DNA from: Ciborinia camelliae
Lineage: Eukaryota; Ascomycota; Leotiomycetes; Helotiales; Sclerotiniaceae
Direction of reading: 5' to 3'
DNA length: 64,000 nt
Assembly: GCA_025890175.1 (NCBI GenBank)
Contig: JANPYM010000017.1
Span: forward strand, 1-64,000
In this document: positions 3,187-63,373 of the stretch, in pieces
Numbering within the stretch: the first letter of the stretch is position 1
Layout of the letters: each line of letters begins with the position of its first letter
Program-made: the position numbers and the translations under genes
Notes under the pieces: generated by a model
Database searches by the model: none
Seen by the model: the letters and a program-made list of their open reading frames with translations, nothing else
What the model was told of the DNA's origin: nothing

Positions 3187-6100
3187 GTTGATGGTAGAGG
3201 TATTACGAAATTCGTCGTGGTGTTGGGAGGAATTTCAGAATGAAGCTCTTGATAACCCGGTTTCGCTCGGCCTAAGCTTGGTTTCCCCACACATTAAATT
3301 CCACCTTCCCACCTACCGATTCCCGCCCGGTTCCTCGGCTGGTGAGCATCACGTGGACGCTTATGTAATTATCCTTGCCGATAGTAGACTTAAGAAGCCC
3401 TTATTGACCATCACCACTTGTCGAATAATCTCGTAATGCATGTTATTACCACTATGTTTACATGTATAGAAACTTAATTTTGGTTTAAAAAAGGGGTGAT
3501 GCAGCATATTGTTTGCTACTCGGTTCCGCGGTACACCTTCAAGTTTGATCACCAGGTATATCGACCACAAATTACACGAGTTTCATATAGCGACAATCGA
3601 AATATCTAAAGTACTACCCTATCGAGCTTTTTTGCACAACCAAGAATTGAGGAACATCCAACTTGGTGTGCAACCTAATCTGTTAATTTGAGGATAACAT
3701 GCACTCCGACCGAGTATGTATGTAGTGTAGCCCTGTGTCTCAAAGCTGTGCACCGATGTTTCTGAGACACAACTTCTCACAGGCCGCTATTGACAGACCT
3801 AATGAGTAACCACTATTCCCAGACGATTTACCGTCAGACTGGGAAAGCTTTGCATACGACGAAGAGTGGTTGGCATTGGGAGGAATGGGATATCCCTCAC
3901 CTCCTATGAATCTATGAAACCCTTCTGATTGAATATTCAATATCTTTTCGTTGGCATGAGCTTATCCCATTATCGCATTATCTTCAAGCCGACCAATAAC
4001 TTGAGGCACTGGTCCCAATGCTGGTGCGCATTTTATTTGGCATCAAAGCAAGTGATTTCATGTTTTAAGCAGCACATATTCGGTATAGTACGGCTATGTC
4101 AATACCGCATATCCGTTACTTTTTGGGGAAATTGTCATTCTTAACGGTAACTTTGTTATTCAACGAAGCTCATTGCAAGTTGCTTGAGTATCATTGGATT
4201 CGATGATTTAATTTCTCAACAATATCAACTATTTACTTGTATAGTCATGACGTTCAATTGAAGAGTCCCAACATATTCTCCGGCCAAGCGTATGCAATAT
4301 ATTTTCATTGATGTATTTCTGGTGCCCAGTTTCTCAATTTCATTCTTGGGATCTTACCTTCTCCGCCGTCGTGTTCAGCATCATCTCACTGATGCACATA
4401 TATGCTCATGAGAAGGATTCCTGGAGGAAGATATGGAGTCTTGACGTTTGGCACTGCAGTCTTTAGTTTGGATCAAGTTGGTTTTCATCTTAGTTGACAA
4501 TTGGCGATGTTCAATTAGCCAAGCGCTAAAGACCACTTGACTGTGAAATACACGAGGAACATCTCATTTGGTCATGTCAAGAGGCGGGGCAATCTGCACC
4601 CGGAATTGAGATTTTTGGAAATCTTCGTATTTTAGACTTCGTAGAGTGGTTGAGAACTTTCATTTTTCACCCAGTAAAGAACAGGGGATAAGTGCTCCTT
4701 TACTACCGGTATCTTAAACTCGACGGGTAGAATTAAGCCCTCTTAATTATACAATTCGAAAGTCTAGCTCGACGGAACAAATTATCTTGCAAGTGAGAGA
4801 ATAATTGATCCGGAGTGCAAGATCTTTCTGTTTGGAAATATTCATTGGATTTCCAAGAATACACCACGATTGCCTTCTAAACTCTGTGCACACTCCCTTC
4901 TTCACCGACATGCACCGTGCAAGCCACCTTTCCCTTTGCGTGTACCACTTCCACAGTGGAATGTATATTCGGATCTCCGGCGCTGCTATGTGGCATACAT
5001 CTGTACACATCTCATTAGTCCTCCTTCATTATTCGCTGATCATCATGACTTCCAAATCACTTACACAATCCTCAAGCCCTTCACATTCTTTCCCAAAATA
5101 TTCGACGGTAATGTTTTCTTTTGAAAAGCTAGTATATGAGACGCCTTCACTTTTTCCAAAATAGCTGGGGATATAACTCCAATTAGTCGCTTGAATCCTT
5201 TTCGTCTAATTTCCGAGGCGAGGAATAGGGGGATATTATGGGAGCCGATCGTTAGGGTACGCAGAATTTGTTGCTTCATTGTTACATTACCGATTATGAT
5301 ATTGCTTGGAATATCATTATATGGACTCTGGTGGAATATCAATATAAATCTTTCTGTCGGGAGTTAGGAGTCGTGAATCAGAGAGTCGCAATCATTTATC
5401 TTGAGAATAAGCCCTCCTGAATCATCGAAAACCGCGAAAAATACATTTATGATTCACAAGGAAGCATTTTATTATATATAGCAAAAAGGTTACTCTGATG
5501 CGTTCATTCGCTATTGTTAGACAAATGTTTGCATCTCGATGTATTTTCTTTGTTTGATACTTGTCGAGAACAATGTCAACAAATGAAAACAATCACTGGC
5601 AAAATCTCACAATTTCATTTGACAAAGCACAAAATTCTGTAACATAGAGTGAAAATTTAATTCTGCGAATACTAGTAAGGTTGAATGAAAGTTCATTGTT
5701 AGTATTATAGGACTCGGTAGGGGGTCGGGATACATTTGCAGAATATGTAATCGCGCTTCACTTGTAAGTCTTATACGAAAAGAAAAATCGAAAACAAGAC
5801 ATGTAACTTCTTCTCGAATTGTAAAATATGTTATGTCTTTTTTAGATATCTAATCACTTTCTCCAGCCGTGTTAAAATATTGGCTAAAATCAGAAATCAT
5901 TCTTAATAATTCTTCGTTTAAATACAGTATTAAATAACAACATTATAAAAATTAATTTCAATCTAATTTAGTACGAATCAGAGCTTGAAGCTAATTCACC
6001 TTGAAATACGTATTGTACATGGAAAATCTGAAAAGACTAAAATGAAACTAGAATACGATTCTAATACAGATTCTTCAAAGGTTCAAGTTTTAGAATTAAC

Positions 6101-6190
6101 GCATTAAGAAGTGATCTAGATACTGGATAGATTCCTTTCAAAGCTTCATTGCCTTAGATAATGAAACTCATGCTTTAGGAAGTAATAGAC
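3187..6190. other. Gene-poor intergenic DNA
   Basis: About 3 kb with no gene I can support. Several short open frames occur on both strands; one on the minus strand (3740-3940) reads as low-complexity Ser/Gly/Asn-rich peptide, but I found neither a start context nor partner exons. AT content rises towards 5400-6100, as in decayed fungal intergenic DNA. Confidence 0.45.
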
Positions 6191-6197
6191 AGAGCAT

Positions 6198-6376
6198 AGT
6201 TGGGGTATCAAAGTTGAAAAACATGCTATTTCAGGTATTTGCCGTTTTTTTTTGGACTAGAATAGCATGATTTTATTTTTTCAATCAATCTCAAATAGTA
6301 TGTTAGACCTCGAATAGCACATTGTGCTAGTTGGGGTATCAAAGTTGAAAAACATGCTATTTCAGGTATTTGCCGT
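6198..6376. repeat. Direct repeat pair, 47-base units
   Basis: A segment starting AGTTGGGGTATCAAAGTTGA and ending ATTTCAGGTATTTGCCG occurs at about 6198-6245 and again at about 6328-6376, identical over its length and separated by about 82 bases. Both copies are in the same orientation. It may be a local duplication or the ends of a small unknown element. Confidence 0.75.
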
Positions 6377-6584
6377 AGATTATAGCATGCTGGCAGTCAA
6401 TTATTGTGAGCCAGTGTCCATTCCATCAAGAGAATCTTGCTTGAAAAAGCTATCGTATCCCAATTTCCTTTCAATCATAATACCTTATTTAAATATCTCC
6501 ACCAAAAAGAGGCCGCAGCTACAAATAAATCAATTAATTATTAACAATCTTGTTAACACAGCGAGTCTCGACATTTCAGGTTCA

Positions 6585-7565
6585 GGAAGACTCTTGGTTT
6601 CTAACTGTCTTACTCGAGTATTCCGCTGGAAGCGGTAAATGCCCCTTGGCACTGGTACTCGAGTCTCTTCAATAAGATGCTTTAGCAGGGTTGGGCACCC
6701 GTACCCTACCCGGGATTTTTGACCCCATAGGGTATTTACCCTACCTTATAGGATTTAGCAAAATGATTACCCTATAAATCCGGCGGGTACGAGTATACCC
6801 GCGGATATATATCATATAATCGTTCTATATAATCGTTCAAAGTTAAGGTTATTTCTAATTATATAAGTAAATCAAAATCATCAAATAATATCAAAAAATC
6901 TATCTTTTCGAGTTATTACAACAATAATCAATAATAATAGATACAGCTTATATTAGTACCTAAAATATTAAATATCTCTTCTCCTCGCGATACCTTCCAG
7001 ATTTACTTTTCTAATAAGTTAACCTTCCCTTCAAATATTGACCTTTCAAAATACTAGCCCCACGTAACCATACCCGTCGGGTATACCCGTACCCTTCAAG
7101 ATTTTATAAGGTTTTCACTCTACTTTGTAGAATATAGTAGAATAGTTACCCGTCGATTTCTACCCGGGTATACCCCGGGTTACCCTACCTTTTGCCCAAC
7201 CCTGTGCTTTAGAGCTTGCTACTACTGGTTCTTCATAATAAATGTACGATTAAGCTTTTGCGCCCCAACGCCCGCCAAGGCCTACCAACGTCGCGCCAGC
7301 CAAGGTCTACTCCGACTCCCTCGTACACGAGCCGGGCTCGTATTGTGCAAGCACTTTCTTTAACAAATGCACCCGTCTCGCACCGGAAATGACCCTGATA
7401 AGGGTCTGCCGAACCGCGTATGAAACACCCTCTTTAGGGTAATGTTATAATTGTATTAGGCATTCCATATATATATAAGCTCCTCGTAGCACTCGATCTT
7501 TCAATACAACAATCATATCATACTTCTTTATTATACTCATATCGGTTGATCAACCACGTATCACC
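6585..7565. repeat. Dispersed repeat, LTR-like, interrupted
   Basis: Bases 6585-6677 and 7205-7330 match, in order, bases 16092-16315 (shared landmarks: CCGCTGGAAG, CCTTGGCAC, GATTAAGCTTTTG, CGCCCGCCAAGGCCTACCAA). In this copy the match is split by the MITE at 6686-7204. Downstream, a TATATATATAAGCTCC promoter-like box and the stretch to about 7530 recur in inverted orientation at about 8700-8765. A TATA box followed by a conserved leader suggests an LTR, but I could not fix both ends or a target duplication. Confidence 0.6.
6686..7204. mobile_element. hAT-type MITE with perfect 8-bp TSD
   Basis: A 519-base non-coding element starting CAGGGTTGGGCA and ending TGCCCAACCCTG, a perfect 12-base terminal inverted repeat. 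It is flanked by identical 8-base duplications TGCTTTAG at 6678-6685 and 7205-7212. An 8-base duplication with CAGGG-type ends is typical of hAT transposons; with no transposase frame it is a non-autonomous MITE. The interior is rich in TACCC/GGGTA motifs. It sits inside an older dispersed repeat, so it inserted later. A shorter, diverged copy lies at 60405-60573. Confidence 0.9.
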
Positions 7566-7647
7566 ACCGGGGTGGTAGCAACAATTATCATGAGGCAACA
7601 ATGATTGAATATTATATAATTTTTTTTATTTGTTCATCACTATATAA

Positions 7648-8046
7648 CTAGCTTTGCTTATTATAACATGTGACATGATTATCGATATGCCAAAGATTTG
7701 AACACTTGTAACTTCCAGAAGCATTACAAGCAGTGCCAAGTACAACATGGCCATTAGGGAGAGTAGAGGTTGTATCATCGTGACGACGGGCTTGGGCGCA
7801 AAAGGCTTGACAATCGATGTTGCTGAAAGCTCTGTCCTGTTATATTGATTATATGAAATTAGCTTTGCCGTCCTTTGTTTTCAAGTTGATTACTTCATTA
7901 AGGGGTTTTAAAATGCGGGAAGTATTTACCTCCCATAGACAACAATTCTGGCCATTTGGGAACAGGCATTGGCAATATTTACAACTGCGTGCGCTGCTGA
8001 CGGCGGCAAAGAGGAACAGGGCGATGGAGGAGCTGAATTTAACCAT
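7648..8046 (-). CDS. Small cysteine-rich secreted protein, effector-like
   Basis: Two exons, 8046-7930 and 7836-7648, joined in phase 0 over a 93-base intron (donor GTAAAT, acceptor ACAG), give a 101-residue protein. Residues 1-19 form a clear signal peptide (MVKFSSSIALFLFAAVSSA). The mature part has ten cysteines (C22, C25, C27, C35, C36 in exon 1, five more in exon 2), an even number suited to disulfide bonds. No transmembrane segment or GPI signal is seen. I do not recognise the family. Small size, secretion and cysteine content resemble fungal effectors or antimicrobial peptides, but that role is inference. Imperfect 14-15 base GATTCGTTTAAAAA repeats lie just upstream of the start (8051-8125). 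Confidence 0.65.
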
Positions 8047-8050
8047 TTTG

Positions 8051-8125
8051 AGGATTCGTTTAAAAAGATTCGTTTAAAAAGATTCGTTTAAGAAGATTCG
8101 ATTTAGACGATTCGTTCGATTTAAA
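8051..8125. repeat. GATTCGTTTAAAAA tandem repeats
   Basis: About five imperfect copies of a 14-15 base unit, directly in the 5' leader or promoter of the minus-strand secreted-protein gene. Copy-number change here could alter its expression; this is inference. Confidence 0.7.
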
Positions 8126-8639
8126 AGGAGTATGGGCGTCGGTAGCTGGTTGATAGTTGGTTTTTGACGAGGATAGGGTATCGAATGAGGAAACGGAGGA
8201 GGAGGATGAGAGTAAATGACTTTAATTGAATGACTTTTATATCGAGGTTAACGATAAGGGATGTCTTGTTTTATACCTTTTACCTTATATCCTTCGTAAG
8301 TAGTTTTTTATACTTATCAAGGTTCTCTTATGCAAGAGGAAACTTTATCAACGCTTGGCAATCTCAATTTTTTTTATACATCTAGTTGTTGTTCCTACCT
8401 TGATAGTCAACACTAGTATGTAGAATTGGATTATGTAACAGGGATGATTTTATCAGGTCACATGAGCACCAGCTTGGCGTAGAATTAGCTTAGGAAGTGG
8501 CTTATTAAGCAACCACATTAGATCTTCAATCCATATTGTGGAGACAGATATGATTTGTCATCGGTTACATAATCATTCTCCTCTTCAATTAGTATAAATT
8601 ATTTAGTTTAGCTAGTTATGAATGAAACCATCCCTTTCC

Positions 8640-8765
8640 CACTTAATATAAAACTCCCGACTTCACAATATCCTTCATCCTTCAAACCAATCCATTTTCT
8701 GAATAATGTATGATATGATTACTATATTGAGGATTTTGATGCTACGAGGAGCTTACATACGCGTG
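8640..8765 (-). repeat. Inverted copy of the LTR-like leader
   Basis: On the minus strand, bases 8765-8706 read TAAGCTCCTCGTAGCA and end in AATCATATCATAC, matching 7480-7530 in the opposite orientation. It abuts the end of the recognisable sedolisin fragment, suggesting that a retroelement insertion truncated that gene. Confidence 0.5.
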
Positions 8766-9579
8766 GAATGCTTACTGCAATTACGTCCCATATTCACTGG
8801 ATCGCAACAATCTTCTTGGGACAATGCCTCATCATTCTTATATAATACCATGACATTCTCGGGTTGGCTGAGGTTCGCATCTGGAATCTTCAAGAACGCT
8901 TTAATGCAAGCCAGAGTAATATTGAATCAATAGTTCCGGAGATTGGGGGTAGACCACGAGCTGAAGGTAGAGCTATCCAGCCTGGGCAAGGGGGTGGGGA
9001 AATCTGGCGCTGACGGGAATGCGCTGCTTGTGATATATTGTTGCTGCATTTCCCAAATGACCCTTTCTTTCTCAGTGGTGCCGACAGCTATATACCCGGT
9101 TTAACATAATCCACATGGCCGGAGGCGTGTGCGGGATGATAATATGCGTCATGTCCAATTCTTATATATCCATCAGGGCTCTCAAATTCATAAAACAGAG
9201 TTTCTAGTAGTGTCTCAGCATGCTTGGCAGGAATCTTAACACCAAGCCATCCTATGTTTTCATAACGAATTATTTCGTTAGGATGTATCGGGTCGGAGTC
9301 GAGCAGCCAACTCTTGACAATACCGACCGTCTCTTCAGCAGGGGCAAAGATCGAGCGAACTTCCTCTTTGATTAGATGTTTTCCGTAGTCTTCAGATGCA
9401 GGGTGGGAAATATCCATCAGTCTGTTATAGCCTGCATGCTGTCGTTGACCGATCCGGACAGGAATAATGCACTCGCCATCAACTCGCCGTCGAGTGCTCG
9501 GCCAAGGCACATCTCTCTTCCGTGAAGCACCGGGCTCAAATGCTGAGCTTACATTTCGTTGATCAACCCTTTCATCCAT
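8766..9579 (-). pseudogene. Sedolisin (peptidase S53) remnant
   Basis: Minus-strand bases 9579-9088 encode a pro-kumamolisin activation domain: the RVDGECIIPVRIG, HPASEDYGKH, FAPAEETV and HVDYVKPGI stretches are characteristic of secreted fungal tripeptidyl-peptidases of family S53. The frame then stops. About 150 bases on, another frame resumes with CIKAFLKIPDANLSQPENV, matching the start of the S53 catalytic domain (normally TPxCIRALYxIP). No signal peptide precedes the prodomain, and the catalytic Glu-Asp-Ser regions are absent. It is therefore a broken gene missing both ends, cut near an LTR-like repeat. Its place beside a peptide-precursor locus is notable, but a role in processing is only a guess. 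Confidence 0.72.
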
Positions 9580-9944
9580 TCAGTAGAATAATAGAATTGC
9601 TGTATTTCCAATCATAATTTAATGTTTCAGCATTCAAACATACACTATTATACCATGGCCCATTTATTGGCAGAACCAATCATACTAGCTTCTCCGTCTC
9701 ACCACATGGACCTTTGAGATGCCAACCACCACAACTAGCTCCCAAACTTGCAGCTATTACAGGATATTTTACAAATCCCGTTTAAGAGCTTTCAATTTAG
9801 ACCCGATAATTATTTCGTTCATGGATCTGACCGATATTCTACAGCGGGAAGAATGGCAGGCACTTTCCCCGCTTCGACCATTTTGTGTCCTTTAGGATAA
9901 GATTGACCTATGGTTAATTGTGTCAGTAAGTCCTAAAACATGAT

Positions 9945-10923
9945 TTACCCGAACTGGTCTGTACCGTATGTTGGATGATTGAGCTCCCCTGGTACAGAAA
10001 TATCAACTCTGTGCCTATCAGCCCAAGCTTCAACTTTTTCCCAATTCATGCATTCGGCTTCGGCGTGGTAGTTTGTCTGGGGAACTCTACTTTCCTCAGT
10101 CCATCTATAAGTGACAATGGCGGTATTCGCACGGCATTGAATACTTTGACGCACAACATCAATGCAGTGTTCTTGATATGAGTTAGTATGTAATCCCCGA
10201 TTTTTTGTTCAAGAATAGAATTATACCAATGTGATGTGGAAGCTCGAGCTTATCCTGAGTAGAAAACTCCTTAAAATATCTGTCTTGGTGAAGAGCCCAA
10301 CGGATCCATTTCTGTTACCTCAGTTAGAAGTTGAGGGCATCTAATGAAGTGGAGCAACACTTACTACACAGTGTAATTCGTGGTAGACGGCGAGCATGCC
10401 CAGGTATCCCCCGCTTCCAAGCGCGGCAGATGTCTCGTTGATGGCATGCAAGTCCTCATCGCTAAGTCTCACGTGGCTCCCTAAGTAAAGAAATTAGAAC
10501 TGATAATGTAATTCGACAGTATGATCATACTGGATGTCAGGTTTGTCCATGCCTCATCGGCCTCGTCGCCCAAGGTCATATACTCGCTCCGATGGGTGCC
10601 CGCTTCGTCCATCCGCATAGAAACATATTCGAGGCTATTTCTTGCCGGAGCTATAAAAGGGACAGAATATTAGAATTGTTCCCAGGCAGTGAAGTCATTT
10701 ACTTACTATATATCAATCTCTGAGGAGCACAATGCGACTTAATCAGATACCGGTCATACATAACACACAGTATACATATTGCGATCACAATTAGGTTAGG
10801 AAAAATGTACTTCTTGTTTTCTTGGAACCATCCGGCGGCATGAACAGGTTGAGCTCCACGACTGTCGTTCAACTCTTTCTCAAAGAGAAAGGGAGTTTCT
10901 GAAGTAGCTTGTTCCGAGTCCAT
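9945..10923 (-). CDS. UstYa-family (DUF3328) peptide-cyclising oxidase A
   Basis: Five exons (10923-10707, 10650-10531, 10480-10365, 10311-10227, 10171-9945), all GT-AG and in phase, give 254 residues. A short cytosolic N-terminus is followed by one membrane segment (about 43-60) and a lumenal domain. Both family motifs HxxHC are intact: HELHC (146-150) and HIEHC (178-182). The usual YxP-type stretch after the membrane anchor and the DEAW motif are also present. In ustiloxin, phomopsin and asperipin pathways such proteins carry out oxidative macrocyclisation of RiPP cores, probably with copper bound at the His/Cys motifs. Here it lies 4 kb from a matching repeat precursor and close to a second UstYa gene. 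The substrate is inferred from that context. The promoter contains an 89-base tandem duplication. Confidence 0.88.
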
Positions 10924-11044
10924 TTTCTTTTTGAAACGATGCAGTAACTGCCAGTGGAGGTGATGAACAGTAAGTTCTTTTGATTCTGATATCGACTGAA
11001 TGATAGAGGAGATTGAAAGACCCTGAACCCGTCAGAGGGCGCAG

Positions 11045-11228
11045 CACACATACTCGGTCAAACTTATGCTGTACAGAGTCCCCTCTGCAAAAGCGGGGTT
11101 GTTTGTGCTAGGTTGCATCCTGATGAACGGCAGCATGCATACTCGATCAAAGTTATGCTGTACAGAGTCCCCTCTGCAAAAGTAGGGTTGTTTGTGCTAG
11201 GTTGCATCCTGGTGAAGATCTCTTGGTA
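11045..11228. repeat. 89-base tandem duplication in promoter
   Basis: The block from about 11050 (TACTCGGTCAAACTTATGCT) is repeated from about 11140 with few changes; both copies contain GTACAGAGTCCCCTCTGCAA and end in GGTTGCATCCTG. It lies 120-300 bases upstream of UstYa gene A, so it may double a set of regulator sites. Confidence 0.85.
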
Positions 11229-12901
11229 AAAGCTTGATCAATTGCTTGACATATGATGGATGATGTGCAAGGCGTAAAGCTTGTTCAAACGGACGCATTT
11301 CCAGCAAGAGCTAGTATCTGTTATCTACTTGCTTACCCCCGCCGGTTTCAAGCAAGATTGCGCTGTATCCGAGATGGAGACATTTCGCCACAATTAATTG
11401 AGGATTAATTAGGAGATTCGACAGCAGATCTGTCAACTATTGGCGCTGCTTCGTAATCGGGCATTGCGAAATTAGAAATGTGACTCTGAATTCAGGACAT
11501 TATCTCTAAGCTGCACGTTGCCGCCCATGCCACCAGTATCATTTCTTTGTCCACACTTCTGCAGATCACATTCTCTAGAATCTTGACCGTATGGTACTAT
11601 CTGATAGGTGGTGTAAATCTCTTGAGTTTCTCATATCATCAACATCCACGATCAATCCGAGTATATCCGAACAATGCATGTCAAATCAGAAACACCGTTT
11701 CTCCGTCCACGTGTAACTGCAGATAGCACCTTCTAAAGTCTTGATCGTATAGCATTCCAATAGATAGAGTCATTTTCTTCCTCACCCCTTAATAGTTGTT
11801 CAGGGGGCTAGGCTCATAAAAAGTAAAATGGTATCGTGTGAGTGGCCAATTTACCTGGCTTTGCTCCAGTTTCTTCAATACATAATGTATGTAATCTCCG
11901 AAAGCGAGGCTTACTGCATAGCACATCATCAAGTTTCGTTTGTGGATAATCTTCTCTAAATAACTCATTCAAGGGGGAGAGTAGGTACAAGAAATCGTCA
12001 CGACGTCACGACTTCACGAACGTCTACAGCAAGACTGACATGGGACAATACAATATTTAACGTCAGGAAATACTAAAATCTTATGTCATCTCACTCAGGG
12101 TAGCAAAACTATCTATTTTGGTCATTCTTCCAATCGTAAGGTCCGTTTCGCCAGTTGATAGTGCAGGGCCGGTATCACGCCCTTCAGTTAGAAGAGATAA
12201 GATGGGAGTATTCCGTGAAGATAAAGCTAGTAGTGTCCCATGGGCCTTTTGAATCTTGCTGAAGACACTAAATTCTTCTGGGCAATATACACTGGACTAA
12301 AGTCGAGCACGATACTAGGCCTACAGCCCAGTATGATGTCACGGTAGATTATTTCCGCCAACCATAACTATATTTAGGCTTTGAACACTGTATTATACAA
12401 TAAATCTAATTAGCTAATATACCGAAAATTAATTAATTATTGCAGTTGATATTTCGACCCAGGCTCTGAAAGCTCCTATAATTTAATGGCCCAAGGCCTG
12501 AAGGAAAATAGCCGGACTAGTACTATGAGTTGGTGATGGGGGCGTGTTGCCATTCAGACCCTACCGCCATGTACGATTATGCACAACTAGGTACCTAGGT
12601 AATCTAAGAGCTGTAGTCGGTACACATTTATCAGCATTGTGAAGAAATGAATCAAAAGTAGCCCGAAATTATTTAAATTAATGAGTTTTCTGACATAAGT
12701 TTTACTGGAAAGAAATATGGCTGATTTACTTCTATGCCAATTACCCTCAGTGACAAAGGTCGAAACCATAGTGTCCACGGCCGTAGATTATGACCAGAAT
12801 CTATACAAAACATTCTACACATAAGAAACCATACCCTCGTCATTCTATGCAATTCCTCCCTAGCAAGAAAACAATCATTGTTACTGAGACTGTGTTGTAT
12901 A
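11229..12901. other. Intergenic between the two UstYa genes
   Basis: 1.7 kb without a supported gene. Two diverged segments near 11555-11615 and 11705-11770 resemble each other (both with CTGCAGAT followed by TCTTGA(C/T)CGTAT), a possible old duplication. A perfect palindrome CTAGGTACCTAG lies at 12587-12598. The open frame at 12587-12778 has no family signature. Confidence 0.5.
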
Positions 12902-14173
12902 TCAGTGATCTTCTGGCCAGACCATATGCATATTTGGCCCAGGTGGCGTCATTTCGATTGAACCATTGACTAGAGGAAAAGCAATTCCTGGACATTGGTA
13001 CATTGCCATTAGCCAGGAGTTATGAATCGCGATTCCTTAATAGTGTTCGAGAACTCACCGTATTTGGGGTTGACAAGTGATTTCTGGTCAAACATGGAGA
13101 ATGACCGTTGCGCTGCCCAGTCATCAAGTTTGTTCCAATTAACACAGGTATGGTAACTATATTTTATTAGCCTGATCTGTCCTCGGCAATGGAAATGCCA
13201 AAGTAGTGCAGATCTAAAGGGGATTTATAGACAACTCACACTTTGAAGTCTGGCATAGGGCGCCGAACGCCCTCTTCCCAATTGAAAACTGATATTGAAG
13301 TATCCGGGTGACACACCAGGGCCTGACGAATATCATCTATACAATGATCTTTCCGCACAAGTAAGCAACAGTTCATTTAACAACGCGATTTGGCAGATCA
13401 TACCAACGTGACTTTTTGAAACCGGCTCGTAGTCATCCGAGTAGGCAGCCATTCTTAGATATTTCTGATTGGGGTTAAAAATAATATTCTCGTACTCATA
13501 TGAAACTTGGGAGAATGTTTAAAAACTTACCAGGCAGTGTAGATGATGGATTACGTTCAATTGCCCATGGTATCCAGAACCATCCGCCAATTCAAGAGCA
13601 GTCTTGTTCAATTTCCGAAGGTCATCTCTGGAGAGCCTGAGATTTATATTTCTAGTGAGTTCGTGCCACGCCTCTTCGACTTCCTGTCAAACTTATCAGT
13701 CTCGACCGACACTTTATCAGGGCCAATGAAAGAGAAATAATGAATACGTACGGGACGAGGATTCCCTACGTAAACACTCTCCTTATCAATACTTCCATCA
13801 TAAAAATACTTTACGTATTCCACAGCCTCATGCGCAGGAGCTATTCGATTGCAGTTAGGTGATATCCAGAGTATTGAGAGAATTCTTGATCGAATTTCTT
13901 ACTATATGTAAGTTGTGGTGGGCCTGATCGATATCCAAACCAATTGATTGCACCAAGTACTGCGAGGGAGTACGTTGCAAATATCAGCAAATGGGCTGCA
14001 ATTGCACGGATACATCTTCGGCGCCTTTGACGACGTCGATTATCATCAAAGTCGAGATTTGTATTCTCTTCCGAGTCGGTGAGGAGTGAATGAGAGGATG
14101 GATTAGATATCTCATCTTCGTAAGAAGTTTTATGATCGGAACCAGAGTGAATTCGTTTATACTTTGATTCCAT
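12902..14173 (-). CDS. UstYa-family (DUF3328) peptide-cyclising oxidase B
   Basis: Seven exons (14173-13903, 13840-13752, 13683-13531, 13464-13404, 13348-13240, 13156-13059, 12987-12902) keep phase throughout and give 288 residues. A 48-residue basic N-terminus ends in RRRQRRRR, followed by one membrane segment (about 55-78). The lumenal domain has both HxxHC motifs, HHLHC (166-170) and HVDH-C (190-194), as in active relatives. It shares intron positions with gene A around the motifs, so the two are paralogues. Dikaritin loci often carry two such proteins that act in sequence or as a pair. It is transcribed divergently from the precursor across an 865-base shared promoter region, which would favour joint control. 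Product specificity is inferred. Confidence 0.87.
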
Positions 14174-15038
14174 GATTGCAAGTGTAGCCCAAAGACAGGA
14201 GTTGTGGATGCAAAAATAATTGAAAAGAAAAGTCCGATCGAACGTGAGTTGGAGAACTTTGTGAGACTCGGGAGTCTAAGGAGAAGAGAGACAAAATCCA
14301 CCCTTCGTTGAGAACAGCGCTAATTACTTCGCAAATCTTGATTTGACTCCTTGTCTATTTTGAGAGACGGGTGACCAGCTGCTGATACCAGATAACCATA
14401 GTAGTATATTCTAGCGTTACATGCAGTTGAGGGAAGTTATCGAAGGGTTTACAATGGTAAGCGACTTATAAGTCTTGTTCTCAATGTACTTGGTCAATTT
14501 CCGTATTTCTTATCTTATGTGGAACCTAGGAAACATGCATACGCTGCGCAGGCAATTGTACGTAAAGTCTATTCCTGGAAAGTATCTCCTGTATGTTGTC
14601 AGTTGACCTGAGTGCAACTCCGTACTGTTGACCACACAAATACATCCTGCGAGTTTATCTTGCATAATCAGGGTTTTTGCAAGAACAACTCAATCTATGT
14701 ATGATCCATCGCACGATTTCAGCACGATTCCCTTGACTAGGAAGGTAAAATAATGTGTCGTGTCGGATTATTCTTGGTAACTATGCAGAATTGCTTGTGA
14801 CAGCTGCAGTCAGACTGAAGATTTCTCCGCTTCATGAAGATTTGATAGCTTCTATTCTACATTCTTTATTCAGTTAGAGTCTCGATGGTCGTGGAACATA
14901 AATACATCAACTTTTCTTCCATCTGGTCCATCAGTCACTTACTATTCCCTAACAACATAAACCTCAGAATTCACTTCAACTTCTCCCTCAGTCGCCTATT
15001 TTTTAAACGTAATACGTTTTCTTTTTTGAATTTCCAAA
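14174..15038. promoter_or_regulatory. Divergent promoter, UstYa B / RiPP precursor
   Basis: This 865-base region separates the starts of UstYa gene B (minus) and the precursor (plus). A pyrimidine-rich stretch runs up to the precursor start (14900-15035). I cannot name a specific operator. Confidence 0.5.
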
Positions 15039-15480
15039 ATGGTCGCTATCACAAAACTTATTGCACTTTTGCCTTTCGTAGTAGGCGCTCTTGGAGCACC
15101 CACTGCATTAAACGCTGGTAAGCAGAAATAACCCAAACTTTTCAAAATTTCAATGTATAACACGTCTCAAGTACAACATGATATCTTGCCTGGTAGCTAC
15201 AAAGACTTGAGCAAGCGTGTCCCAGTCAAGGATGAAGACCTCATCGAGCAGTACAAGCGCAGCGCTGATGAAGATCTCATCGAGCAGTACAAGCGCAGCG
15301 CTGATGAAGACCTTATCGAGCAGTATAAACGCAGCGCTGATGAAGATCTCATCGAGCAGTATAAGCGCAGCGCTGATGAGGATCTTATCTAAAGAGTACA
15401 AGCGCGGCGCTGATGAAGACCTTATTGAGGAATACAAGCGCAGCGCAGCAAAGGATGAAGATCTTATCGAAGATTACTGA
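15039..15480 (+). CDS. Dikaritin-type RiPP precursor, frameshifted in repeat 5
   Basis: Exon 1 (15039-15117) encodes a signal peptide, MVAITKLIALLPFVVGALG. A 54-base intron (15118-15171, GTAAGC to CAAG) leads in phase to exon 2. After a short leader ending in Lys-Arg, exon 2 contains 36-base tandem units starting at 15231, 15267, 15303, 15339, 15375, 15412 and 15454. The unit reads DEDLIEQYKRSA: a core ending in Tyr followed by the Lys-Arg site for Kex2. This is the architecture of UstA, PhomA and AprA precursors of ustiloxin-type cyclic peptides, a group that includes toxins. Units 1-4 are identical in protein; units 6 and 7 have Glu and Asp for Gln, and the last ends directly after Tyr. One extra base between 15387 and 15399 shifts the frame, so translation stops at 15390-15392 after 99 residues. 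Four intact units remain translatable. Units 6-7 are read only in another frame. Confidence 0.82.
15231..15480 (+). repeat. 36-base coding tandem repeat, 7 units
   Basis: Units begin with GATGA(A/G)GA and contain TACAAGCGC or TATAAGCG (Tyr-Lys-Arg). Spacing is 36 bases, except 37 between units 5 and 6 (the frameshift) and 42 between 6 and 7 (two extra codons). Synonymous changes between units are few, as expected of recent unequal exchange or gene conversion. Confidence 0.93.
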
Positions 15481-16091
15481 TCGGTCAATCCGGATTGCAG
15501 AACTACAGGAATTTTGGTGGTTTGTGCAAATCTTTTCTGAGGATCGCACGGCTCTGTGAGGAATACGTGGGAGAGGGAGTAACATTTGATGGGAAGTCGG
15601 TGGTGGTTTGGTGGTGTTCGACGGGGGGGTGATGCGGCTGGATTCTCCGAGCTGTCTTTATAGGATTGCCGGCTGCGCCATTCTTTCGTCTCCTAGACAA
15701 GCATATAGTCAATTCAAATGCGCGTCTTATTCTGGTATTACCGAGACTATGACCATACACCACAAGAATTTGACATCTCATCCGCGAGCCTGGAAGGCAT
15801 TTCTTTAGCGTAGTCACCGTAGCAAAAACATATAGGATCTGATATTGTGAAATTTCATTTGAGCAGTCGACCATACTGCCTACCCCCTTCTGTAGCTCAT
15901 CTCAGGTCTTTCCATGATCTAGAGCTCGATAGTAGTCTTTAGATTAACTTTTTCTTTTGTCCTTTCTTGTTGTCCTTTGCTGGACGTTGCTAGCCTCCGG
16001 AAAAAATGGTCCTTGAATGTATCCAAACAATAATCATGAGATAAAGTCTGTATGATACCAGTGCGTCTTAATCATAATGTCTTCAGACCGA
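15481..16091. other. Intergenic, no supported gene
   Basis: Downstream of the precursor. Open frames at 15503-15874 (minus) and 15608-15808 (plus) overlap each other in opposite senses and match nothing I recognise. Confidence 0.45.
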
Positions 16092-16315
16092 CTCTTGGTT
16101 TATACATGTTGCGCGTGTGAACTCAAGACTTGAGCATCCCGCTGGAAGTGGAAATGCCACTTGGCACCGGCTCTCTACATTAAGATCATGTACATCCTGC
16201 TCGTACCGTTCTTTACAGTAAATGTCAACGTAAGATTAAGCTTTTGAGCCCCAGCGCCCGCCAAGGCCTACCAACGCCCGCCAAGGTCTACTCCAACTCT
16301 CTTGTGCACGACTCT
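16092..16315. repeat. Second copy of dispersed LTR-like repeat
   Basis: Uninterrupted relative of 6585-6677 plus 7205-7330: CCCGCTGGAAGTGG, CCACTTGGCACCGG, GATTAAGCTTTTGAGCCCC and the CGCCCGCCAAGGCCTACCAA block in the same order. It shows the sequence of the repeat without the MITE. Its outer limits are not fixed. Confidence 0.7.
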
Positions 16316-16611
16316 TCAGCCCAAGAATGAAGGTTAATGGGTGGACTGGAACCATAAATAGATCACGGCGTTTTTTCCGAATGGCCGTACTGTCTTGGGT
16401 TCCAGTTTATCCAATTCTAGGTATGTAGAATATCGTGGCAAGACTTTTGCGACATAGAAAATAATGGGATTCTATTTGTTTGATAGCCATACAATGCTAC
16501 AGCTAATATCCACTGTTTAATATTCATCCATCAAAAAAGGAAGAAGCGTTCCGACCTTTTCAAGCTTTCCAGGTTGCTTATCTTTCTCCTTCCTCTTTTG
16601 GATCTCCTCGC

Positions 16612-16632
16612 GGGGGTGAAGGCTTCACCCCC
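16612..16632. other. Perfect 10-bp-arm hairpin
   Basis: GGGGGTGAAG, one base, then CTTCACCCCC. It lies about 340 bases upstream of the MFS 1 start. It could be a palindromic protein-binding site or chance; no partner copy was found. Confidence 0.6.
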
Positions 16633-16972
16633 ATTCAATACATGTTACCTAATTAGTGGGCTGGACCCATATTACGTGAGATGGTATGTTATGAATGGCT
16701 AAAATCCCATTACTTTATCTACCTAAGAAAGGGTATCTGTAGTTTCTCGAGGAACCTTTGCCACACAGAAGATCATTAAAATTTCCTTGTTGAATTTCCT
16801 TGTTATACTACCCACTAAATAGCATATACTCACAGGGGAGGAGAGTAGGAAAAAGCCTCAGGTTGCACAAAGTTGTCAACTTAGTTGTTGGTGGCCGCGT
16901 GGTGGCGTGCTGTGACTGTTAAAAGGATCTTGACAATTCAGTTGACTCTGCCAAGAACCACTGACTTCCTTA

Positions 16973-19118
16973 ATGCCACCCAAGCACGCTACCGACTCGC
17001 CAACGCATGCAAGTATGGAGAAATCATTGAATGAAACTGCAGATGGCGCCCCCGACAATCGGCCTGCTTCGTTGAGCAAAAGTGTTGTTGCACAAGAGCC
17101 GGAAAACATTCAAACCGACGGCCACCATCCAGTCGAGTCCAATCCGAATGATGAAAGCTGTGTGCAATATGTAACCGGGTTCCGATTGGCTGCAATTACA
17201 TCCGCAGTAACCTTGACTGCTTTTCTCATAACGCTTGACACATCCATCATATCCACGGTAAATGGAATCCGATAGCCAAAGTTTCTGAAAATACTGACTT
17301 TTTCAAAAGGCAACTCCTAAGATAACAAGCCAGTTTCATTCTCTCCAAGATGTTGGATGGTATGGGAGTGCTTATTTATTGACAAGGTGATTCAGTCTCG
17401 CAAAATTTCAACTGTCCATATGCTAACATTTGACTGGCTCTGCTCTACAACCCGTCACGGGCAAGTTATATGCTCATTTCAGTTTGAAAGTCAGTTGCTG
17501 CTGCCAGTCCTGAACTTTTCTCAACTAGGGGATTGACAATGCTGCAGTACACCTACATAGCCTTTCTTGCTCTCTTTGAATTCGGATCCTTAATATGCGG
17601 CCTTGCCACTTCCTCCAGCATGTTGATAGTAGGAAGAGCCATTGCAGGCATGGGCAGTGCGGGAGTTGGAAATGGTGCGCTCACAATAGTATCCGCCTCT
17701 GTGCCTCTTGAGAAAAGAGCTTGTATGTTTCAGTGCGCCTTCAGAACCATTCGATCCCTACTAATCGTTCAAACCGCAGTGTACTTTAGTATTACAGGAT
17801 CAAGTCTGTTTAATTACTCCCTCCTTAAATATGAATCTAATCCTTGTAGTTGGTCAATTAGGAGTTGTACTGGGTCCATTAATTGGCGGCGTGTTCACAG
17901 AATATACAACCTGGAGATGGTGTAAGATTTGAATAACTGGAAAGACCGTTGACAATGACTAATATTAGAACTAGGTTTCTACGTCAACCTTCCAATCGGC
18001 GGGATAGCAATAGCAGCTTTACTTTGGGTAGCGGTGCCCAATATTCCAGTTGAGAAGCCTAAGCGCACGACTTTCAACTCTCTCTTCCATGAACTGGATC
18101 TCGCGGGCTGTCTGCTTTTCGCTCCAACCATGACAATGTTCCTTCTGGCACTCGAATGGGGTGGTTCAACGTATCCTTGGGGCAGTGCCACAATTATCGG
18201 TCTCTTCTGCGGATCCGTTGCCAATCTGGCCCTTTTTTTGATATGGGAACACAAAAAAGGGGATTCTGCAATGATTCCTTTTAAAATGGTCAAAAAACGT
18301 GTGGTTTCTTCGGCCGGCTTTAATATTTTCTTCCTCTTTGCGAATAATGTGATAACGCCTTACTACCTTGCAATATACTTCCAAGGTGTGCGAGGTACGA
18401 CACCTACATTAAGTGGCGTGTATATGCTGCCAGGAATTTTGGGCCAGATGGTCTGTGGTATTCTAGGTGGGCTAGCAGGTATGTCCACTTCCTATTATTT
18501 AAGACGGTGCTAATTCTACAATAGTCACTCGGATGGGTTACTATTTGCCGTGGGCAGTCTTCGGTTCAGGCTTGACAGCCATTGGATCCGGACTGATCAG
18601 CAGATTCACACAGCAGACAAATACCGGTATATGGATCGGCTATCAAATAATCGGCGGGGTAGGACGAGGTCTGGCATTACAAATGGTGGGTACCTGTCGT
18701 GATCCGAATGGCTAGCGCCTGCACTGACTCTCTAAATCAGCCATTTGTAGCAGTCCAAAATAATCTACCTGCCTCAGAAATCGCCGTCAGCATGGCTTTT
18801 CTCAGCTTTTGTCGTAATTTCGGCGGGGCACTGCTGCTGTCCTTCGCTGAGATAGTTTTTAACAGAGGTCTTGGACACGCGCTACCCAGGTACGCACCAG
18901 GACTTTCACTAGATCAAGTTACCGCACTTGGTGTCTCCGGGATTCGATCGATAATACCACAGACAAGTGCGGAAGGTGTGATATCGGCGTATGTCATTGC
19001 TATCCAAAACGTCTTCTACCTTGTAGCCGGGACTGCGGCTGCGGCTTTCATCTTCAGTGCGGGATTGGGATGGAAGAGCGTCAAGAAAGCAAATCAATCT
19101 CGTGATTCCAAAGCTTGA
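16973..19118 (+). CDS. MFS transporter 1 (DHA2, 14-TM) with lost splice acceptor
   Basis: Nine exons in phase (16973-17257, 17310-17386, 17438-17489, 17548-17722, 17780-17803, 17850-17921, 17975-18478, 18525-18685, 18741-19118) encode 575 residues. Family signatures are [47 protein letters not shown] and a 14-helix pattern; such proton antiporters export secondary metabolites. The exon at 17780-17803 is only 24 bases long but restores the conserved stretch between helices 4 and 5. One junction is abnormal: intron 2 (17387-17437) has a good donor and a GCTAAC branch site but ends in TGG instead of TAG, the only place where the frame fits. Normal splicing there is doubtful, so the gene may be crippled. 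Its position next to the RiPP precursor suggests peptide export, by analogy with UstT/AprT. Confidence 0.8.
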
Positions 19119-37158: not shown

Positions 37159-38037
37159 TCAATGTGCACTAAGCGCGGCATCGATGGTCATTCTAATGGC
37201 GTGAGAGGCCCCAACAAGAGCAGCCTCATCCTTGGCACTCGGGATTGGAGTATCGGCATCGTGAATGAAAGTTGAATTCAATTTTGGATCGCACAGTGCA
37301 GATAGCCGAGCACTGGTCTCAGCTCGGTGAATGGGGCCAAAGCGGTGCTCGTCTTTCTGCCCCCATATATTGGCAGTTGGAATGGTAATCATGAACTCCT
37401 CGGGCATTTTCTCCATGTACTTGAATTGATTTTGCATAAGAGCATCATAGTCCAAAGCGTTTCCCGAGAAAAAGATTGCTCCTTTGAACGGAGAACCCCC
37501 GTCGGGATTATTTTGTGCTTCGCGAATTAGGAGTAGAGAAGCGAGTGCAGCGCCTGCAGACAGAGCCATAACGATATCGAAGGGACCTTCGGCGATGATA
37601 TAATCGTGGAGATCTTGGATAGGCTTGGCAAGGCTTGAAGAATCCTGGAAGTCCACGAAGCCAAAATATTTGCCATCTTCGGGATAGTATCCTTTCAAAA
37701 CTAGAGTTGCTTTTAGCTTCATTTCTTTTCGGAACACAGGAATATTTCTCCTCTTACCGGGGTCCATTGTTGCTGGAATGCTCCCTTCTACAAAACACCA
37801 TTCATATCCTTCCCCAAGCTCATGTCTAACAGCAGCTGCAGAAATTACTTTAGCAACTGTAACTATGTACAAAAGGGAATTCAGATGAGTGTACCTGTTT
37901 GAGCTTCAAAGACCTAGTAGTGACCGATTAGAAGCGTTCCTTGAGTAAGGGAAGGGAGTTGAAAAATTCCGTCATACCTTAGCATTAGTTCCTTGACCAT
38001 GGATGCAGAGCACTCTGACGATGTTTGAAGATGCCAT
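37159..38037 (-). CDS. FSH1-type serine hydrolase, partner of PKS
   Basis: Three exons (38037-37978, 37913-37895, 37856-37159) in phase give 258 residues. Exon 2 has just 19 bases and intron 2 only 38, close to the lower limit for fungi. The alpha/beta-hydrolase start VRVLCIHGQGTNAKVFEAQT is typical of the FSH1 family (like LovG-type enzymes that release polyketides from reducing PKSs). The nucleophile elbow is ALSAG (Ser126), the acid IWGQKD (Asp195). The usual H-x-GGH-xxP block reads HDADTPIP (225-232), so Thr stands where the catalytic His is expected; His225 remains nearby. It is divergent from the PKS across 1.16 kb, the usual arrangement for a trans-acting release enzyme. Confidence 0.87.
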
Positions 38038-39200
38038 TTTATGGTAGATCGTGAGTTCGGTGGTAAATTCTTAAAGATTCAAGAAAAGTTCTGGGGTTTC
38101 AGTTGAGTTTTAATGGATCCTCTAGGGGTATATAACTTAGTAAATGAGATCATGCCTTGAAAACAAGTGCCTTTGAATTTCCGGAGTTATGCAGGTTTTG
38201 GTCGATTTATTGGGGTTCGCCTATTTTTCTCTCTCAAATATCCCTGGAGCTTGATAATCATGTTGAGGTTGACAATAGGAAGGTAGTGCCGCACGTATGA
38301 ACTAATATTTTGCTATGATTAGGCAGAGTTTCCGTGTGGAAACAAAGTTCAATAGACAGACTGCGGAGTTTATGCATACTGCAAGACCCCAGGAACCATG
38401 TAATGTATCCACAAAGACCCTCCTCTATCGACCCTCTTCATTTAGCCACCCACTGATCCAAGCTCGTATCCGTTGCAGGGCTTAGAATCTCAACGTCACC
38501 CCTCCAAGTTTACAATAATCAGTCGAGACAGTCCAGTCAATGCTCTACATACTATCTTTTGCGGATATTGATACCAAAACAGTACAAACCTTTCTTCGCC
38601 GCAAATTGGAGATTATGCAACTGGCCAGATCGAGGAAGAAAGTCTCTTTAGTATGACCAAAGTGAATCTTCATTCTGTGTCCCAAACGGTTGGTGATATG
38701 TGCTCTAGCCGAGGTCATACTTTTACTGGACAGAAAAGGCTCATCATAGGATACCATCAATAAGTTATCTTGCCTTTTAAATCTGGCTCCGCAGCTAAAA
38801 TTATCCATGCAGTTTCACCAGAAATCACGAGTGACCTGCGTGCAGAGTCAAGGCTATTTTAGTCCGGATTTCGGCCCTTCCAAGGCATTTTTTCCTTTGA
38901 TTTAGCAGATCTAGGTATTTTTCTGCTTATCCCCTTGTTTAGGGCATTTTCTTTGTGGCGATTGGCTATTTAGCCATGCCACTTTCCATATGTAGTTTAG
39001 ATCGTAGATGCAATGAATCTTGAAAGTTGAATCCCGAATTCCATATTGGAGAAAAATGTATCCTTGATGAATATCACGAGAGACGTGATTTTGAAACTCT
39101 CTGGCTTCGATATTGACTTACAGAGTGCCTCTTGAAGCTCGTTCATTTTGATACCTGAGGGAAGTTTATTCAGTCCAGGTGAAGTGATCAATCATCTAAG
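38038..39200. promoter_or_regulatory. Divergent promoter, FSH1 hydrolase / PKS
   Basis: This 1163-base region separates the two starts. It has a TCCGGATTTCGG segment (about 38861-38872) resembling paired CGG half-sites of Zn2Cys6 regulators, but such short matches occur by chance. No gene lies inside; frames at 38545-38808 and 38997-39191 are unsupported. Confidence 0.45.
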
Positions 39201-42200
39201 ATGCCATCAAGTGACGAAGGAGACCACGGTTCCCGAGAGCCCATAGCGATCGTGGGTATATCTTTTGAATTCGCTCAGAATTTAACATCTGAAAATGCTT
39301 TATGGAAACTCCTCTTGGAAGGACGCACAACGGATACGAAGATACCTTCAAGCCGCATGAACATTGATGCATTTTATAATCGAAATAGAAAGGGATTGGA
39401 TACCGTATGAGCCCTCCTTTTTATTTCTCGCTGGTTTTGTCTCTAAAATATTATCTAACTGTTTCATAGCTCTCAGTTGACCGTGGTCATTTTCTTGGCA
39501 GAGATATAGGTGTTTTTGATGCTCCATTCTTTTCGATTTCTCCCGCAGAGGCGGCAACAATGGACCCCCAGCAAAGATTACTTCTAGAGACTAGCTACAG
39601 AGCACTGGAGAATGGTAGGTATTTCCAGTTTCTCTGCATCAGCCAAGAATCGCGGTAAAACTAACTTTACAAGCTGGGTTGGGTTTGGAAGATGTGAACA
39701 ACTCCAACACGTCCGTTTTTACAGGCTGTTTCTCTGATGACTACAGACTTATGTACGCCAAAGACCCAGAGCAATTCTCTCAATATGGTGGCACTGGAAT
39801 TGCAAATTCATTGCTTGCAAATCGTCTCAGCTGGTTTTACAACTTTTCAGGTACAAGTATGAACGTCGATACCGCCTGCTCTAGTGGCTTGATTGCCCTG
39901 GATCTTGCATGTCACAATCTTCTGAACGGGGAATCCGATATGGTAAGTCTCCATCTGGACTTCTCATTGGGTGCAACGTGATGAAAAGCTAATCTCGGTG
40001 CTTGTAGGCTATGGTTGCAGGCTGCAATTTACTGTTTTCTCCTGATCTATTCCTGGCCTACGATAATCTAAGTTTGTTATCTCCTGATGGGAGATCATAT
40101 AGCTTCGATCAACGTGCCAATGGATATTCAAGAGGGGAGGGATTTGCCGTTCTAATAATCAAACGACTTGCCGATGCATTGGAGAACGGTGACAATATAC
40201 GTGCGGTTATCAGGTCAACTGGCGCGAATCAAAATGGGTTTTCAGCGACAGGTATCACCCAGACAAACCAGAAAAGACAGGAAGCATTGATAAAAGAAAC
40301 TTATAAGAAGGCGGGTCTGGATATGGGGCTCACAAAGTTTGTTGAGGCTCACGGAACCGGCACAAAACTTGGTGACGCACGCGAGCTCAACGCTCTTGGA
40401 AATGCATTTCGCACGAGTAGAGTGGCAAATGATTTATTTGTGTAAGTTTCAAAATACAATGACATGTAGTAGTGCTAATAGTTCAACCCACAGAGGATCC
40501 ATCAAATCCAATATTGGTCATCTAGAAGGAGCTAGTGGACTTGCTGGTGTTATAAAGGCTATTCTGGTATTAGAGAAAGGAATAATACCGCCTAATGCCA
40601 ATTTCCGTGATATCAATATTAGGGCCAATGAAAACTATCTAAAGCTAACTGTGAGCTTTATATCTTTCTATATCAAATATATTTTTTATCCTGATAAATC
40701 GTAGGTTCCGCGTCAACCAATGGCCTGGCCGATGAACGGTCTTCGGAGGGCGTCAGTCAATTCTTTTGGACTAGGTGGCGCCAATGCGCATGTTATCCTG
40801 GATGACGCTTTTCATTTTCTGAAAGACTTTGTTCCAAGGGGCGTTCAAGCCCCTAAGTATCAATGCGGAAAGTGCAAAAGAGGAACAGACCCGCATCTTT
40901 CCAGCATTATTCCCGTTAGCATTCAACCTCATGGTTCATACACCATAAAATCCAGCGGCAATGGAAATGGTGCATCTAAACCGGCGGCAAGGCTTTTAGT
41001 ATGGTCCGCTCATGACACAGATGCTCTTGCGAGACTCTTGAACCAAAATAAGGATCACTTTGCTACATTGATAAATAATGGGCAGCTGGATTTCGAGGAC
41101 CATTCGGAGTTCATGGAAAGTCTCGCGCATACTCTGTGCAACCGGCGAAGCTTACTGACAACAAGATCATACGCTATTGCCAGAAATATAAGTGAGGTAT
41201 TAATAGAACTGGAATCTAGCATTATGAGGACGGCCATCATGCAACCTTCGCCCCCAAAACTTGCCTTCGTATTCACGGGGCAAGGAGCGCAATGGGCTAG
41301 AATGGGCCACGAACTCCTTAGTTATCCCAAGTTCCACGAAAGTCTAAGAGAAGCAGAGCTGTACTACCTCGAAGAACTTTACGCCCCATGGAGACTATTT
41401 GGTGACATATTCTTTATTCTTTTGACTTTCGTTTTCGATGACTAATAATGTTTACAGATGAGCTTCTTAAGCTGGATGCTGTTTCTAATATAAATCGCCC
41501 TGAGTTTAGCCAGCCTCTATGTACCGCCATTCAAGTTGGTCTGATAGATCTTCTGGAGAGTTTTAAGATCAGTCCAACGGTTGTAGTGGGACACTCGTCT
41601 GGAGAGATAGCTGCTGCGTAAGCTTAAATTCTACACTCTATCCGTAGTTAATTTCATGAATTCAGTTTCTGACAGTCTGCAGATATTGTGCTGGTGCTAT
41701 TACGCGCAGGGCGGCTTGGAAACTTGCCTATCAACGGGGACTTCAAGCAAGTTCTTTGGCCAAGCTAAGCAGCCAAACAGGAGGCATGCTGGCGGTGGCA
41801 CTTTCTGCCACTAAAACACAATCTTTCATCGACCAGTGTGAAAAAAAGCTCGAGATGCCTGGGCTCACAATTGCATGTCACAATAGTGACAGCAATGTAA
41901 CGGTTTCTGGATTGAGCGGCCATGTGGATGCCCTACAATTAATACTATCTGCTGCGGGAATCCGATGGCACCGATTGAAGATAACTATTGCATATCATTC
42001 CCCACAAATGAACATAATTGCGAATAGCTATCGACAAGCTATGGGAGATATTGAGAAGGCCACGAAACATAAATCGCGGAGACCTATTATGATCTCCTCT
42101 GTGACAGGACAAAGAGTCACTAATGACGAGCTTTGCAGAGCAGAGTATTGGGTTCAGAACATGGTATCGCCTGTTAAATTCTCTGATGCAATGTCCGGAC

Positions 42201-60030: not shown

Positions 60031-60041
60031 GGGTATTTTTG

Positions 60042-60180
60042 TGCTGGATTGGATTGGATTGAATTGAATTGGATTGGATTGAATTGAATTGAATTGGATT
60101 GGATTGAATTGAATTGGATTGGATTGGATTGGATTGGATATTGGATTGGATATTGGATTGGATATTGGATAGAATATTGG
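60042..60180. repeat. ATTGGATTGA pentanucleotide-type repeat
   Basis: Tandem GGATT/GAATT units with register shifts, ending in three TGGATATTGGAT blocks. Open frames through it (Ser-Asn-Pro-Ile repeats) are artefacts. Confidence 0.9.
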
Positions 60181-60404
60181 AATTTGGGTCTGGGAATGTG
60201 GGAAGGTGTTTATGTATTTATTTTCTCGGAAAGGGTGTAGATTGCGCTTTTCAATTTTCAATCATGGATTTAATTTTATTATGGAATCAAGTTTATTGTT
60301 TGGTAGGTTGATGTTTGATGCCTTTTCGTATCTAGTGCTGGAGCTTGGAGTATTGATTTGGAGGTTTGGGAGGAGGGGGAGGAAGAGGGGGATTGGGGGA
60401 GAAG

Positions 60405-61046: not shown

Positions 61047-61049
61047 GAA

Positions 61050-62998: not shown

Positions 62999-63373
<375 letters not shown>

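Follow-up and report, generated by a model that had tools for sequence, protein, structure and literature searches.

A candidate dikaritin-type peptide locus with an acidic DEDLIEQY core in Ciborinia camelliae

Dikaritins are ribosomally synthesised and post-translationally modified peptides (RiPPs) in which a Kex2-processed repeat protein (KEP) is the precursor and is cyclised by UstYa homologs (PMC10512285). One such system, asperipin-2a (aprA, aprY, aprT and aprR; core FYYTGY), is encoded by a small cluster with a KEP precursor, a UstYa homolog and a transporter, and none of the four genes listed for it is a tyrosinase (PMC6514808). Ustiloxin (YAIG/YVIG) and phomopsin (YVIP) likewise have a KEP precursor with Kex2 sites and proteins of the UstYa family; these two are reported to need a tyrosinase, and methyltransferases dependent on S-adenosylmethionine are described as common in their clusters. 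A similar set of genes is present in Ciborinia camelliae, the agent of camellia flower blight (PMC10512376). It lies in the 64,000-nt stretch analysed here (G000:C9:1-64000, hereafter the window), which is the start of contig C9 in a genome of 46.2 Mb and 27 contigs, and comprises a KEP precursor, two UstYa (DUF3328) genes on one side and a gene resembling those of the major facilitator superfamily (MFS) on the other. As this gene content matches the published description (PMC10512285), the locus is probably a small dikaritin-type RiPP cluster, from which a cyclic peptide would be made out of the repeat precursor.

The precursor gene occupies positions 15039-15392 of the forward strand and consists of two exons encoding a 99-aa product. 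Exon 1 (15039..15117) begins with the ATG at 15039 and encodes a hydrophobic N-terminus, MVAITKLIALLPFVVGALGAP, which is likely to be a signal peptide, judged by hydropathy only. The intron (15118..15171) is 54 nt long and runs from GTAAGC to AG; an identical splice is implied by the public 99-aa protein P0001. Exon 2 (15172..15392) carries four complete units and then a partial one, SADEDLI, followed by TAA at 15390-15392. The product is identical to hypothetical protein NHQ30_010833 of Ciborinia camelliae, and its layout is a hydrophobic N-terminus, a short pro-region ending in LSKR, VPVKDEDLIEQYKR, three copies of SADEDLIEQYKR, SADEDLI and the stop. The units form a 36-nt array with a Tandem Repeats Finder (TRF) score of 304. 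KEPs are described as having a signal peptide and three or more tandem repeats, each 8 aa or longer and none above 100 aa, flanked by dibasic sites (KR, KK, RK or RR; PMC7329392); the annotated 99-aa protein has four such units. The first-pass annotation of this DNA had described a secreted precursor with tandem 12-residue units ending in Tyr-Lys-Arg, and the translation contains such units behind a hydrophobic N-terminus.

The DEDLIEQY cores lie between KR sites and begin at residues 47, 59, 71 and 83. Since the flanks differ (VPVK, SA, GA, SAAK) while DEDLIE-x-Y is constant across the units, the octapeptide is taken as the core. The acidic, Tyr-ending core proposed earlier is present, but in the form DLIEQY it was drawn too short; DEDLIEQY, which is common to the four complete units, is the better delimitation. 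Over the ten codons of DEDLIEQYKR in the four in-frame units, the variable sites are synonymous in 4/4 cases, the chance of which is about 0.0008, or 0.012 under transitions only. The core Tyr is retained in the four complete units and also in two out-of-frame units described below.

The two UstYa/DUF3328 genes adjoin the precursor and lie on the reverse strand. U2 (12902..14173; 7 exons, 288 aa) is divergent from the precursor, with 865 nt between the start codons, and carries HHLHC at 166 and HVDHC at 190. U1 (9819..10923; 6 exons, 277 aa) comes next and carries HELHC at 146 and HIEHC at 178. Both final models are full length. The Pfam UstYa profile matched U1 at 141 bits (E 8.8e-41) and U2 at 169 bits (E 1.4e-49); these matches, like the homology and PDB searches, were obtained with earlier models (U1 254 aa, U2 282 aa) that had wrong last exons. 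Thus, the earlier claim of two UstYa-family proteins with both HxxHC motifs is borne out, the motifs being present in both final models and the family matches in the earlier ones. The H and C residues of the motifs are invariant in 18/18 aligned sequences, the alignment being composed of 18 of the 31 matches of the U1 and U2 searches, one of which is the species' own U1 entry, with P0030 left out.

The C-terminus of U1 was placed using the homologs P0026-P0028. The edge of the locus had been set at 9945, a position that falls inside the last intron of U1; the gene extends to 9819. A public protein (P0025, 416 aa) joins U1 with a sedolisin pro-domain ORF (Pro-kuma_activ; 9088..9579, reverse strand; Pfam E 2.6e-23). 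This single-protein model was rejected because P0026-P0028, three U1 homologs, end within a few residues of the U1 model, and the public fusion is probably a mistake. The pro-domain ORF itself is probably outside the pathway, and no sedolisin catalytic domain was recognised beside it by eye over the ORFs.

The U1 homology search gave 8 matches, including the species' own entry. The relatives are from Aspergillus phoenicis (63%), Icmadophila ericetorum (63%), Hyaloscypha hepaticicola (61%) and Cudoniella (51%), with shorter entries from Aspergillus niger (56%) and Penicillium expansum (58%) and one at 32%. U1 looks patchily distributed, because the named matches beyond the own entry skip Sclerotinia, Botrytis and Monilinia. 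For U2, the 23 matches include Aspergillus niger (54%) and entries from Sclerotinia, Monilinia, Botryotinia and Botrytis (52-53%). No solved structure was related by sequence to the earlier U2 model at E<=0.001. The AlphaFold model of the U1 homolog P0026 (18-row alignment) is poor (pLDDT 62) and was not used as evidence; it had no PDB match at E<=0.001, which leaves the idea of a metal site neither supported nor weakened. Upstream of U1, an 89-nt unit occurs twice in tandem at 11041-11216, with 91% matches.

When set beside asperipin-2a, the C. camelliae locus is likewise small, with a precursor, UstYa genes and a transporter-like gene, and its contig likewise has no tyrosinase match. It differs in having two UstYa genes in place of one and in its core, which is unrelated, acidic and has one Tyr; also, the ORFs scanned or read include none recognised as a reductase gene. 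The tyrosinase family PF00264 has 12 matches in the genome, of which 0/12 fall on contig C9, in agreement with the earlier statement that the locus has no tyrosinase. A methyltransferase was not found among the 20 Pfam-scanned proteins, and no genome-wide search for methyltransferases was made. With no tyrosinase on C9 and a core that is DEDLIEQY and not YxIx, the locus falls outside the ustiloxin/phomopsin subgroup. The order of residues differs as well: Tyr is N-terminal to Ile in ustiloxin and phomopsin, whereas Ile stands before Tyr in epichloecyclins (PMC9233826) and Ile/Leu before Tyr in C. camelliae.

Epichloecyclins (gigA cluster) are likewise described with a repeat precursor and DUF3328, though with one such gene, 27-residue imperfect repeats as against the 12-residue units here, and kexB in the cluster. 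In C. camelliae, no kexin was recognised in the ORFs scanned or read, and no kexin search was made. Victorin, too, has a multicore precursor with an aliphatic residue (Leu) upstream and an aromatic one (Phe) at the core C-terminus, but it differs in having Phe and not Tyr, in its cluster-encoded peptidases and in chlorination (PMC9233826). As read from its sequence, DEDLIEQY shares this polarity.

The first-pass annotation had put the locus forward as a candidate new one. For relatives of the DEDLIEQY precursor, one protein search over 5.8 billion sequences (3368 candidates, E<=1) yielded the species' own entry only, and a search of the own genome returned this locus alone, in two matches, with the core absent elsewhere. 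Among the listed literature matches to the core strings, no fungal RiPP paper was present, judged by titles and with supplementary tables outside reach; similarly, no description of this locus was seen, judged by titles and the starts of abstracts. These searches do not establish that it is absent elsewhere, since the scores of short repeats are weak and annotation often misses small ORFs. At the sensitivity reached, the core is indeed unlike others, with no match in the protein collection beyond the species' own entry and none in the rest of the genome. The kind of locus is already known, because 1758 (22%) of the 7878 KEP genes counted in 2020 have DUF3328 neighbours (PMC7329392) and a candidate RiPP cluster has been noted in the related Sclerotinia sclerotiorum (PMC6941272). 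Hence, of the claimed novelty, the core sequence without a counterpart remains: the peptide looks new by its sequence, within a well-known type of cluster.

The same genome holds other loci of this kind. The UstYa profile gave 58 exon-level matches across it, and 20 of the 33 UstYa neighbourhoods chosen were examined with a KEP detector of our own design, which looks for similar units between dibasic sites. KEP-like ORFs were detected in 3/20 of these other neighbourhoods and in the analysed window; by this count, therefore, the genome carries four or more KEP-UstYa loci, and the one with DEDLIEQY does not stand alone. On 3-base block shuffles (20 rounds over the window and the 20 loci) the detector gave zero detections, and it detected no second KEP-like ORF in the 64-kb window. 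L011 (G000:C9:126500-136400, near 2731, reverse strand), on the same contig C9, has KEP-like repeats GDAKEALNAYQMFSDIERR with several UstYa matches close by. L020 (G000:C1:3013800-3023700, near 7353-8000, forward strand) has the repeats EPDRSVVGTGSDRYKR with a UstYa match near and more units in other frames, while L024 (G000:C3:1723000-1732900, near 1861, reverse strand) has six similar units AKDADTAIVYPAEKR, again near a UstYa match. By eye, the repeats of all three are unrelated to DEDLIEQY.

A route from the precursor to the product can be proposed by analogy, for secretion, processing, cyclisation, bond position and export alike. The precursor would enter the secretory pathway, where Kex2 would cut after each KR in the Golgi, as in the characterised dikaritins. 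Trimming of the C-terminal KR would then give SADEDLIEQY, or DEDLIEQY once SA is removed, possibly by a dipeptidyl peptidase. The model for this removal of SA is the yeast alpha-factor pathway. U1 and U2, which by analogy would be copper-dependent oxidases, would form a cross-link between the Tyr at the C-terminus and an aliphatic residue upstream of it; export or compartmentalisation of the product may fall to the MFS protein. The calculated [M+H]+ is 1024.447 for DEDLIEQY (1022.431 after loss of 2 H, 1020.416 after loss of 4 H), 1182.516 for SADEDLIEQY (1180.500 after loss of 2 H) and 780.377 for DLIEQY (778.362 after loss of 2 H). Enzymes of the DUF3328 family are reported to form Tyr-O ether cross-links with oxygen at a dicopper site, as in asperipin-2a (PMC12186524, 2025), and Ile/Leu upstream of an aromatic residue has precedents in the epichloecyclins and victorin (PMC9233826). 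By these analogies, the product is most likely a short acidic peptide with its C-terminal Tyr cross-linked to the upstream Ile/Leu; the exact bond position is a guess. A bolder proposal, offered tentatively and with the balance somewhat against it, is a strongly acidic macrocycle of 6-10 residues (the octamer having four acidic side chains), in which two UstYa enzymes, with no tyrosinase involved, would close the ring between the C-terminal Tyr and an Ile, Leu or Glu upstream.

Several points weigh against the assignment of the locus as a dikaritin-type cluster. The first-pass annotation missed that the frame stops in unit 5, at the in-frame TAA of 15390-15392, and so is not open through the whole array as in an undamaged cluster. 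What is left of unit 5, together with two more units, follows in another frame (15393..15480, forward strand), outside the annotated protein, with core ends EEY and EDY and a TGA at 15478-15480; the second match of the own-genome core search is at 15388-15480. These out-of-frame units differ in amino acids: at core position 7, Q has given way to E or D, and one flank has G for S. The presence of a core at the out-of-frame C-terminus points to an ancestral protein with seven units. The end of the public protein is identical and, because this protein sits on a differing contig record (862,529 long vs 840,310 for C9), the cut-short end is not peculiar to this assembly file. The truncation is most likely real, although both assembly files may share reads. 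As the loss of frame leaves four usable cores, a lower output is expected, not necessarily its loss.

The MFS-like gene is a further weak point. It is a possible exporter (17015..19118, forward strand; exons 4 onward placed by eye), and 2/4 of its scanned ORFs matched Pfam, with TRI12 at 33.2 bits, above the cut-off, and MFS_1 at 20.8 and 21.1 bits, both below. The TRI12 match upholds the MFS neighbour named in the first-pass annotation. However, intron 2 (GT donor 17387, region 17387-17440) lacks a usable AG where its boundary would be expected. From this donor, the one analysed, 15 AGs occur within the next 260 nt; the single one that keeps SALQPVTGK gives a 9-nt intron and an in-frame stop, and the remaining ones skip this conserved stretch. 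Among the MFS paralogs at the same position, L033 seems to have an intron and L032 has none. The intron may represent an unusual splice site or decay. With a precursor frame interrupted in unit 5 and a transporter gene whose splicing may be abnormal, partial decay of the locus is a possibility.

The enzymes and their pairing with the precursor raise similar doubts. In the public model of P0030, an Aspergillus niger relative of U1 outside the alignment, the first HxxHC motif is missing. U2 has no near-identical public C. camelliae entry among its 23 matches (best 54%; 4 nameless) and, for this reason, the public annotation seems to lack U2 in this form, or may hold it at another length or misjoined. 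The pairing of precursor and enzymes comes from a single locus, as no other genome could be shown with the precursor beside these enzymes. The product, its expression and its activity are predictions from sequence. Thus, what stands of the dikaritin-type claim is the KEP precursor, the UstYa pair and the MFS-like gene, with four complete units only and with the boundary of U1 corrected.

The truncation and the doubtful intron lead to the first alternative, that the cluster is decaying or dead and makes little or no product: the precursor would have lost its last three cores, splicing of the transporter may fail, and the peptidase pro-domain nearby would be an orphan. The stop and frame change in unit 5, the identical cut-short 99-aa protein in the public annotation of another assembly file, the missing AG from the donor tested and the pro-domain without a catalytic domain recognised by eye among nearby ORFs are all consistent with it. 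Even so, the U1 and U2 models are open across 6 and 7 exons, and four complete units remain whose ten core-plus-KR codons vary synonymously only. Dikaritin precursors are reported to average 5 repeats (PMC10512285), and four are therefore not unusual. Decay to this extent is considered unlikely.

It is also conceivable that the precursor gives linear secreted peptides, pheromone- or effector-like, while the UstYa genes act elsewhere. Most KEP genes, 6120/7878, are reported without DUF3328 neighbours (PMC7329392), and 3 of the 20 other UstYa neighbourhoods examined in this genome have different KEP-like ORFs of their own. Against this, the precursor and U2 are divergent neighbours with U1 next, the window has no other detected KEP-like ORF, and all four complete units retain the Tyr; moreover, KEPs annotated as mating factors or pheromones are reported to be without DUF3328 neighbours, with three exceptions (PMC7329392). 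Linear peptides are thus improbable, more so than decay. A chance repeat or an assembly artefact without gene function, which the frame change inside the array and the Nanopore and Illumina reads behind the mitogenome of an Italian C. camelliae strain (PMC10512376; the nuclear assembly may have another source) might bring to mind, is very hard to credit given in-frame units that vary synonymously only, a public annotation that implies the identical start, splice and stop, two adjoining UstYa genes and a detector that finds zero in shuffles.

The surroundings of the dikaritin-type locus were covered in part by Pfam; in the gaps 10924-12901 and 15481-17014 and in the stretch 5200-9087, the ORF lists were inspected by eye only. 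Beyond 19.9 kb, there is a gene resembling another membrane transporter by eye, to whose three ORFs Pfam gave no family, as well as a Ras-like GTPase, a BBE oxidase, an aminotransferase and a fungal rhodopsin-domain protein. A polyketide synthase cluster candidate with an FSH1 hydrolase lies downstream of the RiPP locus at about 37162-47509; one exon of the synthase matched a highly reducing polyketide synthase (HR-PKS) domain, its extent being judged by eye from ORFs. There is no reason seen to join the genes beyond 19.9 kb to the RiPP cluster. Long AT-rich and simple tandem repeats occupy both window ends (1-1100 and 60000-63975).

For a specialist in fungal RiPPs, this is one more predicted cluster and no surprise. 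The cut-short array is a natural case of repeat-number change, which is reported to alter the product and transcript levels for ustiloxin (PMC10512285), and it lowers the odds of high productivity. Being compact, with a single precursor, a pair of enzymes and product masses that are predicted, the locus provides a tractable test of UstYa substrate acceptance, which is valuable because five dikaritins had been reported as of a 2022 review (PMC10512285) against the 1758 KEP genes with DUF3328 neighbours. A C-terminal aromatic residue together with an acidic core would widen the known UstYa substrate range. If the acidic macrocycle proposed above is true, it would be a polyanionic dikaritin, possibly able to bind metal, made by a pathogen confined to flowers, and its chemotype would set it apart from the published cores mentioned above.

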